DNA of 41,120 nucleotides from positions 1 to 41,120 of the IMG/VR virus record IMGVR_UViG_3300021438_000026. One strand, 5' to 3'. Position numbers and translations under genes: made by a program. The DNA comes from a virus. Under the pieces are notes generated by a model that saw only the letters and a list, made by a program, of their open reading frames with translations, did not search any database and was not told the DNA's origin. This document shows, one piece after another, positions 27,342 through 39,837 of this stretch (the stretch's first letter is position 1; every line of letters begins with the position of its first letter).

Positions 27342-29081
27342 TCATTCCCATTTCCCGTATCTTTGCGTCACCTCAGCCCCCGGCAGCTTGATGGGCCAAG
27401 GGCGGCCCTCATCGTCAACGGCCCAAGGCTTGAGCACCGCAGCGCGAGCGATGCGCAGGTACTCCTCGGATGTGCCGTGCACAGTCTCCACGATTTGCTC
27501 GTCATGCGTGTGGCCGACCACGGGGTAATTGCCGCTCGGGTGCTCATCGAGGGCCAATAGGGTATCGGCTTGGAATTCGCGCGCCACCTTGGCGACTACG
27601 TTTTGCGTGAGCACCCCGCCGTACAGCGGCATGCGTAGCCACGAGCCGCCATCCTTGGTGTTCCATCCCTCGTAACTGAGGTCCAATTCCCAAGGGCTCG
27701 CCCACTCGCGGCGGGCTTTGTTGAGCCGTGGCGCATGGTATTGCAGCGGCGCACCGTCGCCCGGGGGCTGGCAATACAGCACGTCGCCGACCATCATGTA
27801 CCGCACTTGGCGGTGGCCAAAGCAGGTGCCGGGGTTCTGTACCGCTGCAATTGCGGCACCCTCGAGCCCGTACAGCTCGGGCCGCTCGGGCGCGTAGCTG
27901 CCATCCGGCGCCTTGTTAAATTTGTTGCGCGTCTGGCCGCCCCACATCTCGACAATGTTGGGAATCTGCCGGCGGGTGCGCAATATCATCTCTTTGATTG
28001 CCTTCTCGTCGCCAAACGCCGCTGCGCCGAATTTCACCCAGCCACCTACCCATGCACCAAAGTCACTCGCGAGCACGGGGATTTTTCCGTACGTCTGCCG
28101 GTCGGGGTGATGCTTGCCGTTCTCCTTGCGGTATTGCAAGTAATAATCGAGCGATTTGCCGGTGAGCATCGCGGCCATCGACTCGTATATCTTGCCGTGC
28201 GTGTGGAACACGTCGAGCCGCCATTTCTCGCCCGCAAGTGCACTCGTCACCACGGCTTGAATCGCGGTGAAGTCGGCCGATATCAGTGTGGATCCGAGCG
28301 GCGCGCAAATCATTGACCGCAAGCAATTGGCCACACACTCAAGCGCATCGCCATAGACCAGCTCGACGTATTCAAGCGATCCCGTTGCGATGACGGCCAA
28401 CGCCGCTTCGATCTCCTCGGGGGTGTTGTTTGACCCTTTGTAGAGATTCATCACTTGAATGTCGCGGCCGTTCCACAAGCTAGTGTGGGCACTGTGGAAC
28501 GAGTATTGATCGCGCAGTCGGCCATCGGCGCACGTTTGGGCGCGCATCGCATACAGCTTTTTGACGCAGCCAAACGATAACAAGGCGCGCAACTTGAGGA
28601 CGCGCAACACATCCGCCGGATGCTGCTTGGCGAGCTCGGTTTCGACTGCCTCCTCATCCAAATTTTCAACGTAACAACTACGCGTTGCGAGCCAGCGCAT
28701 CATATCGGCCGCTTTGCTGTAGGACTCGACGGCGCCATGCGTCAACGCGCGGATCTCGGCGTTGTATTTGCCCATCGCTTGCTCGACGATGACAATGCAC
28801 GCATTGACTGCTTTGAGGTCGATCGGCAACCCGCGCGCATTTATGCGTTGATCCATCAACCATAGCCGCAACTCGCGGGGGCTCATCTCGGGCATGGCGT
28901 CACTCACCGCTATCTCGGCGCGTACGTCTTGCTTGCAGTACTCGTAGAACTGCGCGAATTCAAGCGGCGCGGTCCACGGGTGCAGCCGCAAGTCGGGGTT
29001 GCCCTTGGTCGGATTGCGCGGTACGGTCAGCTTTTTTATCAGCGCTTTGCCGGCTTTGTCTTTGAAGGCTACCGGCTGCAC
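27342..29081 (-). CDS. Family A DNA polymerase, C-terminal half (split gene)
   Basis: A 579-residue protein starting at GTG 29081 inside the end of the Rmf-like gene; GGCGGGG lies 8 nt upstream and an in-frame stop lies two codons before. It begins after the first exonuclease motifs: KDKAGKALIKKL, then YEYCKQDVRAE (exo III-like, 47-55). The polymerase part has HTSLWNGRDIQVMNLY (199-214), motif A SADFTAIQAVV (catalytic D270), RQTYGK (motif B, 328-333) and motif C GHTHDEQIV. The usual HTGRW and IEAR patterns read HTSLW and IQAV here, so active-site side chains differ while the metal-binding Asp residues remain. Role: replicative polymerase, probably working with the N-half at 29206-29736. Confidence 0.88.
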   Translation of the reverse strand: MQPVAFKDKAGKALIKKLTVPRNPTKGNPDLRLHPWTAPLEFAQFYEYCKQDVRAEIAVSDAMPEMSPRELRLWLMDQRINARGLPIDLKAVNACIVIVEQAMGKYNAEIRALTHGAVESYSKAADMMRWLATRSCYVENLDEEAVETELAKQHPADVLRVLKLRALLSFGCVKKLYAMRAQTCADGRLRDQYSFHSAHTSLWNGRDIQVMNLYKGSNNTPEEIEAALAVIATGSLEYVELVYGDALECVANCLRSMICAPLGSTLISADFTAIQAVVTSALAGEKWRLDVFHTHGKIYESMAAMLTGKSLDYYLQYRKENGKHHPDRQTYGKIPVLASDFGAWVGGWVKFGAAAFGDEKAIKEMILRTRRQIPNIVEMWGGQTRNKFNKAPDGSYAPERPELYGLEGAAIAAVQNPGTCFGHRQVRYMMVGDVLYCQPPGDGAPLQYHAPRLNKARREWASPWELDLSYEGWNTKDGGSWLRMPLYGGVLTQNVVAKVAREFQADTLLALDEHPSGNYPVVGHTHDEQIVETVHGTSEEYLRIARAAVLKPWAVDDEGRPWPIKLPGAEVTQRYGKWE

Positions 29082-29209
29082 GAATCATACCCCGCCATCC
29101 ATTGGGCATGCTCAGCCGTGCCGTTAGCGTAGGGGCAAGACGACCGGCCCTCGTTTCGCGTGGCTGCCCATACACCTTGGTTGAAACACATCTGAAGATG
29201 AATGCTCAA
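29069..29209 (-). CDS. Rmf/CrpP-fold-like small protein between polymerase halves
   Basis: A 46-residue ORF starting at TTG 29209 (TTGA overlap with the polymerase N-half stop; GGAGG 10 nt upstream); an internal ATG at 29191 would give 40 residues. The core GVWAATRNEGRSSCPY then AEHAQWMAGYDS matches the ribosome modulation factor pattern: an aromatic helix, then CPY, then WxxGY/W. The CPY triplet is identical to E. coli Rmf. Its end overlaps the GTG start of the polymerase C-half by 13 bp, so the three cistrons are likely translated as a chain. The tiny size and the split host gene made it easy to miss. Ribosome binding is inference. Confidence 0.6.
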   Translation of the reverse strand: MSIHLQMCFNQGVWAATRNEGRSSCPYANGTAEHAQWMAGYDSCSR

Positions 29210-29736
29210 AACGGCTTATCCTCCGCATCACAACGCGGGCAATCCACATGTGTGGGCGTACCGTGGGCGCAGTGCGTTGGCCGCTCCGGTTGCGTCCTAT
29301 GGCGCAACACCACGTCGCCCGCATCCTCGAGCCCCCGTGGGTAACCATTCACCGCCGCTTGTGCCATCGCGCACCGCATTTGCTCGATCCGCAGTGTGGG
29401 CCAGCCGAGGCGAGGCGTACAGAATAGCGACCAGACGTAGAACTCAAAGGAGCTGTTCCACGCCTTGACCAGACCGCCCGCGGCAACATGAGCGCAGATG
29501 TCCGCGGGGGGCGCATCGCCGGGCAACCACAATTGCACCCCGGCGCCGCGGCGCATGTCGTAGGCCATGCAGAGCACCTCGAAACTGGGATGAGAGACGT
29601 AGTTGTAAGCCCCAACGAGCGGCAACCCGGTCTTTTTGCTGCCCGGTTCGGTGCCGTGCCATTTACCGGCGGCGGCATCCCACGCTAGGCCAGCTTCGCT
29701 GTACGTCTCATAGTCGAATGAAGGGATGATCCGCAT
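29206..29736 (-). CDS. Family A DNA polymerase, N-terminal exonuclease fragment with zinc tail
   Basis: A 176-residue protein. The opening IIPSFDYETYSEAG holds exonuclease motif I (DYET), LVKAWNSSFEFYVW the motif II region, and MAQAAVNGYPRGLEDAGDVV the conserved stretch that in intact phage polymerases leads to KDKxGKxL. That continuation is found only in the downstream ORF (29081), in a different frame (655 bp offset, not a multiple of three). The last 25 residues are replaced by a zinc-ribbon-like tail (CAHG, CPRC). AGAGG, 5 nt from ATG 29736, is the ribosome binding site and is largely buried in the leader stem. The two halves are separate cistrons joined by the Rmf-like gene. Confidence 0.82.
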   Translation of the reverse strand: MRIIPSFDYETYSEAGLAWDAAAGKWHGTEPGSKKTGLPLVGAYNYVSHPSFEVLCMAYDMRRGAGVQLWLPGDAPPADICAHVAAGGLVKAWNSSFEFYVWSLFCTPRLGWPTLRIEQMRCAMAQAAVNGYPRGLEDAGDVVLRHRTQPERPTHCAHGTPTHVDCPRCDAEDKPF

Positions 29737-29741
29737 AGAAA

Positions 29742-29870
29742 CCTCTTTGCGCTGCGCTCACCCACCGGGGGGTGGGGATCCCGCCACCCTAGCGGAGTCG
29801 AACCGCCGCGAGCGCAGCGCAAAGAGTGCCGGTCTATTCCCGGCGGTCAGCGGCTTTGCACATCGCCGCA
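29742..29870 (-). promoter_or_regulatory. Structured 5' leader of the polymerase operon (candidate riboswitch-like element)
   Basis: In the minus-strand RNA, a perfect 17-bp stem pairs 29810-29826 with 29743-29759, and the distal strand contains most of the AAAGAGG ribosome binding site of 29736. Inside the stem is a T-arm-like hairpin (29791-29809): a 5-bp GGCGG/CCGCT stem with loop TTCGACT. There are also two mutually exclusive 6-bp hairpins (29771-29776 pairs with 29761-29766, or 29770-29775 with 29784-29789). Upstream are GCCGG/CCGGC (29828-29844) and GCGGC/GCCGC (29850-29869). No tRNA can be folded from it. This layout suggests control of translation. Confidence 0.65.
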
Positions 29871-29895
29871 CGAAATGCCCCTTTGTATCGGGGTG

Positions 29896-30813
29896 CTATG
29901 CTATCAAACCTTCTTGTCGCAACAAAGCGTCAGTCCAACCGGCACCGATGAGCGCCTCATACGTTGCGCCTTGTGCCTTGGCTGTCATCACTCGCAATGG
30001 AGCCTGCGGAACCGGTGGCGCTGGGGGAACGGGGCCGGTGGGCACTCCGGGCGTAAGAAACGAGGGCACCGGTACCACATGAGTGGGTGCAGCGGGTACC
30101 GCAGGGGGTGCAGCATGGGGGGCGGCCGGCGTGGGGGACATGGCGGCGGCCGGTGGCAACTGGAAGTTAGTCATGCTGACCCCCGCAGGCAGCGCGACGC
30201 CTTGCCCAAACCCGACCGAGTCCGGATCGACGCTAGCCGATTCAATCACCTTGTCAATGCCCAGAAGGCAAATAATACGGTGATTTAGGTACATGCCGGC
30301 GGTCTTGGAGGATTGATTGCTGGCCACCTCGGCGGAAACTTGCACCCAGTAGCCAGGGCGGATGGCGTCCTTTTCCATCAGCTCGACTGTGCGGCCGCCC
30401 TCAAGCCGCACATATGTGGACGCCTGGGAGTTGCTGAATGTGAGCACCCAGTGACCCGGGTAGCCTTCTTTGTCCGCGTTGCGGCGCATGTTCTTATTCG
30501 GCACGGTAGAGTCGCCGTCAGCCACCTTAAAAGCGAAGCCGGTTTGCTGCGTCTGGCCGTTCGGCCAAGCCTTGAGCGCAGCAGCGTGCAATTGCGCGCC
30601 CCACGGAGAGGCGGTCCAATGCTGCCCCGGAGTCTTGGGGATGGCGTACCCGAATGCGTACTCGGGGCGTGGCTTGCCGGCGTTCGAGCCAGTCTTGAAT
30701 AACTTGGGCGTGCCGTCCTCATTCTTGGGGAATTTGGGCTCATAGAAGTTCCCCCAGACGATGCGTCCGGGAGCGAACAGGATGCTGATGCGGTCTTGCG
30801 TGGTGGTGCTCAT
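29896..30813 (-). CDS. DUF2815 protein (ssDNA-binding-like)
   Basis: A 305-residue protein from ATG 30813 (MSTTTQDRISILFAPGRIVWGNFYEP), overlapping the HNH gene stop (ATGA). The first 190 residues hold the DUF2815 core: GRIVWGNFYEPKF, KPRPEYAFGYAIPK, EGYPGHWVLTFS, AIRPGYWVQVSAEVASN and MYLNHRIICLLG. These proteins sit in the DUF2815/DUF2800/PolA/helicase/VRR-NUC replication module of many phages and behave like an OB-fold ssDNA-binding protein (inference from context). Residues about 200-280 are a Pro/Ala-rich linker, and the C-terminus is a short helix motif (YEALIGAGWTDALLRQEGLIA region) likely used for partner binding. Confidence 0.85.
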   Translation of the reverse strand: MSTTTQDRISILFAPGRIVWGNFYEPKFPKNEDGTPKLFKTGSNAGKPRPEYAFGYAIPKTPGQHWTASPWGAQLHAAALKAWPNGQTQQTGFAFKVADGDSTVPNKNMRRNADKEGYPGHWVLTFSNSQASTYVRLEGGRTVELMEKDAIRPGYWVQVSAEVASNQSSKTAGMYLNHRIICLLGIDKVIESASVDPDSVGFGQGVALPAGVSMTNFQLPPAAAMSPTPAAPHAAPPAVPAAPTHVVPVPSFLTPGVPTGPVPPAPPVPQAPLRVMTAKAQGATYEALIGAGWTDALLRQEGLIA

Positions 30814-32576: not shown

Positions 32577-32887
32577 CGGGCGTACCCCATACGTTGGTCA
32601 ATTTTGGCGCCATAGCGGTAAGAGTCCACTGCTTTGCGGGGTGTAACTTCCCCCTGCGCCCGGGCCACCAACACCGCCCGCACCCCCGCGTCATGCGTGC
32701 CGATCGTCATGACGCTGCCCAGCCGCTGCACGGCGGGCGGGTACTTGCGGCCGGGCGCCTTGGGCTTCTTGGCCCGCGGTGGCTCGAGCAACAGCGGAAG
32801 CCCATCGGGCCACAGGTCCCGCACTGGAATCGAGGGCAGCAGCGAGAAGCCCCGAGCTATGAGCTGCGCCGTGACGCGAGCGCTCAT
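32573..32887 (-). CDS. Hypothetical protein in the replication operon (104 aa)
   Basis: A 104-residue protein, ATG 32887, overlapping the 263-residue gene by 4 bp (ATGA) and the next gene by 4 bp. The N-terminal helix SARVTAQLIARGFSLLPS is followed by RDLWPDGLPLLLEPPRAKKPKAPGRKYPPAV, a basic Pro/Lys linker. Then comes a strand-rich VMTIGTHDAGVRAVLVARA and YRYGAKIDQRMGYAR at the end. No known motif was recognised. Its place ahead of the Cas4-like nuclease indicates a DNA metabolism accessory role (inference). Confidence 0.6.
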   Translation of the reverse strand: MSARVTAQLIARGFSLLPSIPVRDLWPDGLPLLLEPPRAKKPKAPGRKYPPAVQRLGSVMTIGTHDAGVRAVLVARAQGEVTPRKAVDSYRYGAKIDQRMGYAR

Positions 32888-33675
32888 GATTGCACCAGCG
32901 GCAGCAGACCCGCCATGACGATCGGCAACAGCTCAGGTTGCTTGGCGAGCCCCGCCATATTCGCACAGCCCGCGGCGGCGCACTCGGTGATGATGGCGCC
33001 CGCGGTCAGCTTGCCGGCCGTGAGGTGTGGCGTAGCCCAGCGCATGAAGTCCATGAAGGTGACGACGGGGGCGTCAGCCGTCGGGGGCATCGGTACCGAA
33101 CCCGGTACCGCCGCAGGCCCAGCAAAGCCCGGTGCAATTGCCTGCACCGTCGGGGGCATCGGTACCGAACCCGGTACCGCCGCAGGCCCAGCAAAGCCCG
33201 GTGCAATTGCCTGCCCCGTCGGGGGCATCGGTACCGCGGCAGTACTCGCAGGGCTCGGAACGGGCGGCGCCGGCACGAAAGGGGGCAACGCTGGGGCGTC
33301 CTCCGCATTGCCAGACCTACCAGACAACTCCGCAAGCACCGAGTCATACACCGCATCATCCACGCCGCGGCGTCGCGCCCACGCGCCCTTGTCGGTCAGC
33401 TTCTTGCTGCTCGAGTCAATGCGTTCGTCCCATTGGCGGCCGGTCTTATCGGTCGCCGGCGCCGCGACAGGTGCAACCGGAACGGGGGCGTCAGCCTGGG
33501 GCGGCACCGGGGGGGAAGGAACAGGGTTGGCGTCAACGTCGAGCGCGCTCAGTGACGCTTCGCAGTCTTTGCGCGCTCGGTCCCGTTCATTGTGGTTCGC
33601 AATGGTGTTGATGAGAGCCGCGAATGCTCGCAGCACCTCGGGGGCACTACACAAATCAAGCTCCAAACGTATCAT
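32884..33675 (-). CDS. Proline-rich phage protein with 23-residue repeats
   Basis: A 263-residue protein that begins the left-reading replication operon (GGAG about 10 nt before ATG 33675). Residues 1-45 are helical (LDLCSAPEVLRAFAALINTIANHNERDR). A Pro/Ala linker follows, then residues about 75-120, WDERIDSSSKKLTDKGAWARRRGVDD, a segment I associate with conserved hypothetical proteins near phage replication genes. A second linker (about 140-200) contains two exact copies and one partial copy of a 23-residue unit (VPMPPT, AIAPGFAG, AAVPGS). The C-terminal 60 residues are helical (TFMDFMRWATPHLTAGKLTAGAI). Function unknown; a scaffold or nucleoprotein partner is possible. Confidence 0.65.
   Translation of the reverse strand: MIRLELDLCSAPEVLRAFAALINTIANHNERDRARKDCEASLSALDVDANPVPSPPVPPQADAPVPVAPVAAPATDKTGRQWDERIDSSSKKLTDKGAWARRRGVDDAVYDSVLAELSGRSGNAEDAPALPPFVPAPPVPSPASTAAVPMPPTGQAIAPGFAGPAAVPGSVPMPPTVQAIAPGFAGPAAVPGSVPMPPTADAPVVTFMDFMRWATPHLTAGKLTAGAIITECAAAGCANMAGLAKQPELLPIVMAGLLPLVQS
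33079..33236 (+). repeat. Tandem 69-bp repeat (2.3 copies) within the 263-aa gene
   Basis: A unit of 69 bp begins at 33079 and again at 33148, with a 20-bp partial third copy at 33217-33236. Copies are identical except for a single base in the unit end. It encodes 23-residue Pro/Ala repeats in frame on the minus strand, so copy number can vary without a frameshift. Each unit carries two GGTACC sites. Confidence 0.9.
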
Positions 33676-39616: not shown

Positions 39617-39837
39617 GAAGTGTAGTTTGTCATTAGGACTACGAAAATGGGTTTACGGCTAAAGGGGCATTTCTTTCGTTTTCAGTATGTATGACTGTTT
39701 TTCTGTGTGCATTTGAGTGTTATATGTAGTAAGAAAGATTGCGCGGGTAGATAAGGTAATCATACATACTGAAAACGAAAGAATGGGGCCATGGCGGCTA
39801 AAGGCGATTTCGTAGTCCTAATGACAAACTACACTTC
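39617..39837. repeat. 221-bp region with 78-nt imperfect inverted-repeat arms (origin/control candidate)
   Basis: Arms 39617-39694 and 39760-39837. The outer 30 nt match perfectly as inverted repeats (39617-39646 with 39808-39837) and so do the inner 24 nt (39671-39694 with 39760-39783). Between them each arm has a 24-nt unmatched segment, both containing CGGCTAAAGG in the same orientation (39656-39665 and 39795-39804). The 65-bp centre is AT-rich relative to the genome (TGTTATATGTAG, AAGAAAGATT). There is no ORF. Divergent promoters lie on both flanks. Candidates: replication origin, long RNA hairpin or multi-protein operator. Confidence 0.85.

Follow-up and report, generated by a model that had tools for sequence, protein, structure and literature searches.

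The window analysed here, a 41,120-nt stretch that makes up a virus record with a P22-type coat protein, contains on its minus strand a long hairpin between a gene for a Gp2.5-like ssDNA-binding/annealing protein (SSB) and the gene for a DNA polymerase. The hairpin reaches into the ribosome-binding site of the polymerase, which raises the question of what such a structure does at this junction. The original prediction took it for a ligand-operated on/off switch of polymerase translation carrying a mimic of a tRNA T-arm. As described below, this reading was partly supported.

Structure of the Leader and Its Flanking Genes

The leader occupies the 159-nt gap between the two genes and holds no supported gene, as had been proposed. 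Its features are collected in Table 1.

Table 1. Features of the SSB–polymerase junction in the window.
Feature	Position	Strand	Basis
Upstream gene, Gp2.5-like ssDNA-binding/annealing protein, 319 aa	29896–30855	minus	PHROG 7011, E = 5e-54
Upstream hairpin CCCC-GATACAAA-GGGG (loop 8), right behind SSB stop	29878–29893	minus	RNA fold
Upstream hairpin GCGGC-10-GCCGC	29850–29869	minus	RNA fold
Short hairpin GCCGG-GAATAGA-CCGGC (5 bp, loop 7), one base 5′ of main stem	29828–29844	minus	
Main hairpin, 17-bp perfect stem and 50-nt branched apical domain, 84 nt	29743–29826	minus	
5′ arm of main stem, CTCTTTGCGCTGCGCTC	29810–29826 (read 29826–29810)	minus	
Apical hairpin GGCGG-TTCGACT-CCGCT, T-arm-like, not conserved	29791–29807	minus	
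Apical segment with two pairing options for CCCACC	29761–29789	minus	
3′ arm of main stem, GAGCGCAGCGCAAAGAG, holding AAAGAG of the Shine-Dalgarno sequence	29743–29759 (read 29759–29743)	minus	
Ribosome-binding site AAAGAGG	29742–29748	minus	sequence and computed accessibility
Downstream gene, N-terminal part of split family-A DNA polymerase, 176 aa, exonuclease motifs I and II	29206–29736	minus	PHROG 17 and alignment
C-terminal part of split polymerase, 579 aa, exonuclease motif III and polymerase domain	27342–29081	minus	PHROG 17, E = 7e-45

The perfect 17-bp stem closing a 50-nt multi-hairpin domain was recovered as first proposed. Six of the seven bases of AAAGAGG lie within its 3′ arm, 5 nt ahead of the ATG at 29736–29734, which is the sole start codon upstream of the first conserved polymerase motif. 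In the predicted fold this Shine-Dalgarno (SD) sequence is fully paired, with an unpaired probability of approximately 0 for AAAGA and an opening cost of 11.6 kcal/mol, in agreement with the claim that the ribosome-binding site is buried. The minimum free energy of the RNA at positions 29720–29900 was −91.1 kcal/mol against −71.3 ± 4.6 kcal/mol for shuffled sequences (z = −4.3), and of 200 dinucleotide shuffles of the leader 199 were less stable; folding as DNA gave z = −5.2. The RNA-folding check suggested with the original prediction accordingly returned a strong structure. Pure chance was ruled out as the origin of the stem, since in 60 whole-window shuffles the longest perfect inverted repeat averaged 11.5 bp and never exceeded 15 bp. 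The 17-bp stem with a buried polymerase ribosome-binding site is hence confirmed. Further hairpins are indeed present upstream, but they number three instead of two, because 29893–29878, 29869–29850 and 29844–29828 each form one.

The ATG starts polymerase coding as proposed, but the ORF it opens covers just the N-terminal 176 aa, the polymerase being divided over two ORFs, which sit in different frames. The division (29302–29069, minus strand) lies in the exonuclease domain between motifs II and III and amounts to approximately 230 nt, within which a 40-aa ORF with a ribosome modulation factor (RMF) domain was found (29191–29069; Pfam PF04957, E = 5e-7). The polymerase of the sister phage L027, described below, is split at the same place by approximately 750 nt with several small ORFs. 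A group I intron was rejected for the split polymerase of the window, for which Rfam gave no match at the gathering threshold. Elsewhere in the window, nested inverted repeats at 39617–39837 (39-nt arms of 90% identity enclosing perfect arms of 24 nt and a loop of 65 nt) occupy an AT-richer gap between divergently oriented ORFs and may be a promoter/operator region or an origin, and an ORF at 32884–33675 (minus strand) encodes tandem near-identical protein repeats (PMPPTVQAIAPGFAGPAAVPGSV).

Comparison with a Sister Phage

The only close relative of the window in the collections, IMGVR_UViG_3300037742_000058 (L027/G006), is collinear with it and shares mostly 50–77% identity in the virion proteins and 67% in the C-terminal part of the polymerase. 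Its SSB–polymerase gap of approximately 390 nt folds as a hairpin chain (z = −9.4) that includes three contiguous hairpins with stems of approximately 18, 23 and 21 bp, and the polymerase ATG is located inside the last 3′ arm. The first hairpin is preceded by GCCGG-10-CCGGC-A, the same arrangement as in the window, and its stem differs from the window stem by two double pair-preserving changes and one change from C-G to U-G. In the third L027 hairpin, the arm CTTTGC-ATACG-GCTGCGCTC matches CTTTGC-GCTGCGCTC of the window except for 5 bp added symmetrically on both sides of the stem. These changes indicate that pairing was maintained while the sequence changed, which is what the proposed covariation analysis was meant to reveal. 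The loops of the two phages are unrelated, and the T-arm-like loop is absent from L027.

Hairpins Downstream of Gp2.5-like SSB Genes

An alignment-based search yielded 80 polymerase relatives. A positional class was defined here as a stem of at least 13 bp with a loop of 18–95 nt located no more than 200 nt after a Gp2.5-like SSB gene, and the window hairpin falls within it. Perfect stems of 13 bp or more with a long loop were detected in 7 of 70 SSB-downstream regions, the window being one of the 7, and in 3 of 2160 controls (P = 2e-9), in a screen that favours perfect stems and whose thresholds were set after the window hairpin had been seen. When only intergenic gaps were considered, the corresponding counts were 5 of 29 (again including the window) and 1 of 114 (P = 0.001), based on crude gene calls that were mechanical for the controls. 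The gene upstream of the hairpin was Gp2.5-like in all six cases tested with profiles. Hairpins also stand behind SSB genes that are followed by a gene other than polymerase (L036, L039 and L063). None of the 57 polymerase upstream regions without an adjacent SSB gene had a long-loop hairpin, and the contrast between 3/47 and these 0/57 polymerase upstream regions is suggestive only. These placements do not support defining the hairpin as a polymerase leader.

The elements take the form of a stem of 13–23 bp and a branched hypervariable loop of approximately 35–85 nt. In 6 of 12 independent hairpins the stem is stacked directly on a short GC-rich hairpin that lies at most 2 nt from the 5′ arm, versus 3.7% of positions (binomial probability approximately 2e-6, calculated by hand). 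In the window, L027, L100 and L101 the next SD or start falls under the 3′ arm, which is clear of both in L099, L078, L102, L036, L063 and the Xanthomonas group; an SD or start was located within the arm at only about half of the hairpin-bearing SSB–polymerase junctions. Stems of the class are almost purely Watson-Crick with hardly any G-U pairs, to which the perfect-stem bias of the screen contributes, and a comparison of G-U with A-C departures, intended to tell RNA from DNA selection, found no usable mismatches in them. For 60 of the 70 SSB genes in the clade, no long-loop stem of at least 10 bp occurs within the following 200 nt, so the element is dispensable or replaceable; ordinary terminators are present behind some SSB genes of the clade.

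A second hairpin style was observed right behind the SSB stop in L078 and L100–L103, with CCCC(C)-based stems of 10–13 bp. Two of these genomes, L101 and L103, are related and have the surrounding sequence in common, while their inner stems are different and both fully paired. Matches to the L063/L099 stem were set aside in L130 (coding), L132 (tRNA) and L129 (palindromic contig end). The last contig opens at positions 1–116 with a 35-bp palindromic stem and a 46-nt loop, possibly a fold-back assembly artefact, which is a warning for hairpin scans in metagenome contigs.

Cassette Exchange in Xanthomonas Phages

When IMG/VR was scanned for the outer stem, a match appeared in one other contig (L012/G001), in which only helicase and primase are weakly similar to the window. 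It shares with the window 23 nt on the 5′ side (two mismatches) and 15 nt on the 3′ side around an unrelated loop, and the inner 15 nt of the window 5′ arm are identical. This contig is closely related to Langgrundblatt1, Langgrundblatt2 and Pfeifenkraut, which are phages of Xanthomonas; most of the 15 nt are also present in the latter two, where new loops of 62 and 85 nt sit on a retained outer stem. The hairpin site of this group has upstream flanks of 88–97% and downstream flanks of 90–99% identity around an intergenic cassette of 45–73%. Between Langgrundblatt1 and Langgrundblatt2 the flanks are 97–99% and the cassette 50% identical, and both stem and loop of Langgrundblatt1 are wholly different. 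A short hairpin TCCCGG-14-CCGGGA resembling that of the window is present in the Xanthomonas phages, where the element lies behind a PHROG 2480 gene and ahead of a small ORF and a Sak4-like gene. In three Xanthomonas phage records (L120, L121 and L122), a hypervariable hairpin cassette was seen at approximately 2020–2190 between nearly identical flanks, and its annotation is inconsistent (small ORFs, a peptidase on the opposite strand, or a pseudogene).

Among 50,697 phage records, the window leader gave at most short chance matches by DNA similarity, and the Pfeifenkraut and Langgrundblatt1 cassettes gave no matches outside their group. A host repeat (REP-like) origin of the arm was rejected: of 274 genomes of one class, 2 contained CTTTGCGCTGCGCTC, each as a single copy. 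Two genome contigs (L013 and L014) carry hairpins that share the arm base; these were judged to be chance likenesses, because an exact match finds each only once in its genome and their inner stems are unrelated. The core pattern was also matched without a hairpin in L110, L111 and L113, and L015 falls within coding sequence; all four were set aside.

Comparison of these genomes identifies the element as a predicted intercistronic hairpin of phage replication operons, positioned just after a Gp2.5-like SSB gene, and shows that the predicted structure persists while the sequence does not.

Apical Domain

The segment CCCACC (29776–29771) can pair with either of two partners, as had been noted: GGGTGG (29789–29784), chosen in the minimum free energy fold, or GGTGGG (29766–29761). 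The second pairing is, however, worse by approximately 4 kcal/mol, and the outer stem is intact and the SD paired in both forms. The proposed on/off action is not supported by this alternative pairing, which releases neither. No Rfam family, riboswitches and T-box included, matched the leader at the gathering threshold (the best match, an unrelated family, scored 17.6 bits versus 45), so that the Rfam search suggested earlier came out negative. ARAGORN found no tRNA or tRNA-like structure, and there is no acceptor, D or anticodon arm beside the T-arm-like hairpin. The sequence GGTTCGANTCC is present in just one further hairpin loop, that of L053 (2668–2760), where an SSB–polymerase hairpin with a 19-bp stem and a loop of 55 holds the T-arm signature GGTTCGATTCC. 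Few other occurrences of this signature outside tRNA genes were found in approximately 0.9 Mb of partly redundant sequence; that so rare a motif stands in two loops of a small hairpin set is recorded here as an observation.

Proposed Role and Alternative Explanations

We propose, with a probability of roughly 45%, that the element is a constitutive intercistronic insulator after the SSB gene, selected for its structure, which in the window may also lower polymerase translation. The hairpin would act constitutively in the polycistronic mRNA, making a ligand unnecessary, and would block or receive nucleases as a barrier to 3′-end decay, an RNase III cleavage site, or both. Such blocking or cleavage could keep the abundant SSB message apart from the next gene, and in cases such as the window, with the 3′ arm extending into the next ribosome-binding site, polymerase translation would be held low relative to SSB. 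An RNase III-type stem has approximately 17–20 bp or more in the transcript; the window offers 17 bp and stacked apical stems in the predicted fold. Near-total turnover of sequence with a similar long hairpin kept speaks for a structural spacer and not for a ligand-sensing switch. The strong fold with its buried SD, the pairing kept in L027, the enrichment after SSB genes (also those with another gene than polymerase behind them), the exchanged Langgrundblatt cassettes and the abutting short hairpin are taken in favour of the insulator. Counting against the insulator are the almost purely Watson-Crick stems, since RNA selection alone would tolerate more G-U, the missing stem behind 60 of 70 SSB genes, and the position of the Xanthomonas hairpins after PHROG 2480.

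The perfection of the stems may have another source. At a replication hot spot, switching of the DNA template could make such stems and keep them perfect, with no selected function or only a mild one; perfect stems have been reported to arise and persist through single events of this kind (PMC8794818). The stems are perfect, end abruptly and contain hardly any G-U, the 5-bp insertion between the window and L027 is symmetric in both arms, and the loops have no other matches in the 50,697 records. This is a serious rival, although we consider it unlikely as the whole account: it can explain the origin and perfection of the stems but not, by itself, their clustering after SSB, which holds even against other intergenic gaps, nor the abutting short hairpin and the wholesale replacement of hairpins at the same site. 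Selection at the DNA level is a further alternative, in which a cruciform or single-strand hairpin would serve replication, recombination or gene exchange and the arms would provide short homology for annealing recombinases. The DNA fold score, the cassettes exchanged between nearly identical flanks, the near absence of G-U pairs and the neighbouring genes for annealing proteins (Gp2.5-like and Sak4-like) are consistent with it, as is the 15-nt arm shared by otherwise unrelated phages. That sharing is a single case, however; most phages have entirely different arms, which leaves no recognition sequence in common, and the few non-Watson-Crick departures in the first L027 hairpin are G-U in the mRNA sense. 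We accordingly regard a DNA-level role as quite unlikely. Slightly more doubtful still is a fast-evolving hairpin cassette beside ssDNA-binding/annealing genes, whose loops would be exchanged or diversified by selection, for example in escaping or engaging host RNA- or DNA-sensing defence, with the conserved two-hairpin base as a scaffold.

Regulation of the polymerase itself fares less well. A switch operated by a ligand or protein, for example autoregulation as in T4 gene 43, would make use of the buried SD with its opening cost, of the alternative CCCACC pairing, and of the SD or start lying under the 3′ arm also in L027, L100 and L101. Such a switch would be expected to keep a recognition element, and none was seen: the loops hold no conserved sequence for a ligand, even in the sister phage, which turns the comparison against the ligand-recognised leader first envisaged. 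The apical rearrangement that keeps the outer stem, the lack of riboswitch or T-box matches in Rfam and the hairpins standing ahead of genes other than polymerase add to this, and the switch is judged improbable. Least probable by far is that a factor for tRNA processing or translation binds here to a tRNA-like element or a remnant of a tRNA. This reading draws on GGTTCGACTCC at 29804–29794 and on the rare signature recurring in the L053 loop, but the other tRNA arms are absent, both tRNA searches were negative, and the motif is missing from L027 and from all hairpins other than those of the window and L053, so that the proposed T-arm mimic is not supported.

If the insulator reading is true, the hairpin would be a simple way for phages to set the SSB:polymerase ratio. 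Langgrundblatt1 and Langgrundblatt2, close isolates differing at such a site, provide ready test material. The element represents a class of phage non-coding elements missed by profile searches, because its sequence turns over while position and fold persist. We found no description of it in the open PubMed Central literature, and hairpins go unmentioned in the paper on these Xanthomonas phages.

Comparison with Known Systems

In T7-like phages, genes sharing a transcript are separated by intercistronic hairpins with long double-stranded stems, which RNase III processes. The long intergenic stem is alike here, whereas the predicted stems are perfect, the loops measure 35–85 nt and sequence turnover is extreme. 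The intrinsic terminators behind SSB in the relatives L030 and L005 occupy the same junction with a GC-rich hairpin; unlike them, the window hairpin has a 50-nt branched loop and no T-run behind it, and no intrinsic terminator (GC hairpin plus T-run) was found there. Promoter/stem-loop exchange elements (PeSL) of T4-like phages are intergenic hairpins tied to module shuffling. They are cited in PMC4503421 and PMC5348500. The present element shares intergenic position and module shuffling with them, but no promoter motif was found for it and most of its copies have no common sequence; in the window, no promoter-like site accompanies the hairpin and the arm occurs in just one hairpin. Among the studied examples of control through a polymerase leader, T4 gene 43 comes closest. 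As in the window, the T4/RB69 operator is a hairpin ahead of a phage polymerase gene and involves its ribosome-binding site (PMC3014915). The T4 operator hairpin is only 16–18 bases long, with a conserved loop recognised by gp43 (PMC3014915), and no small hairpin with a conserved recognition loop was found in the window and L027, whose loops are unrelated. Unlike the T4/RB69 operator, the element described here has stems of at least 17 bp and hypervariable loops, and it tracks the SSB gene.
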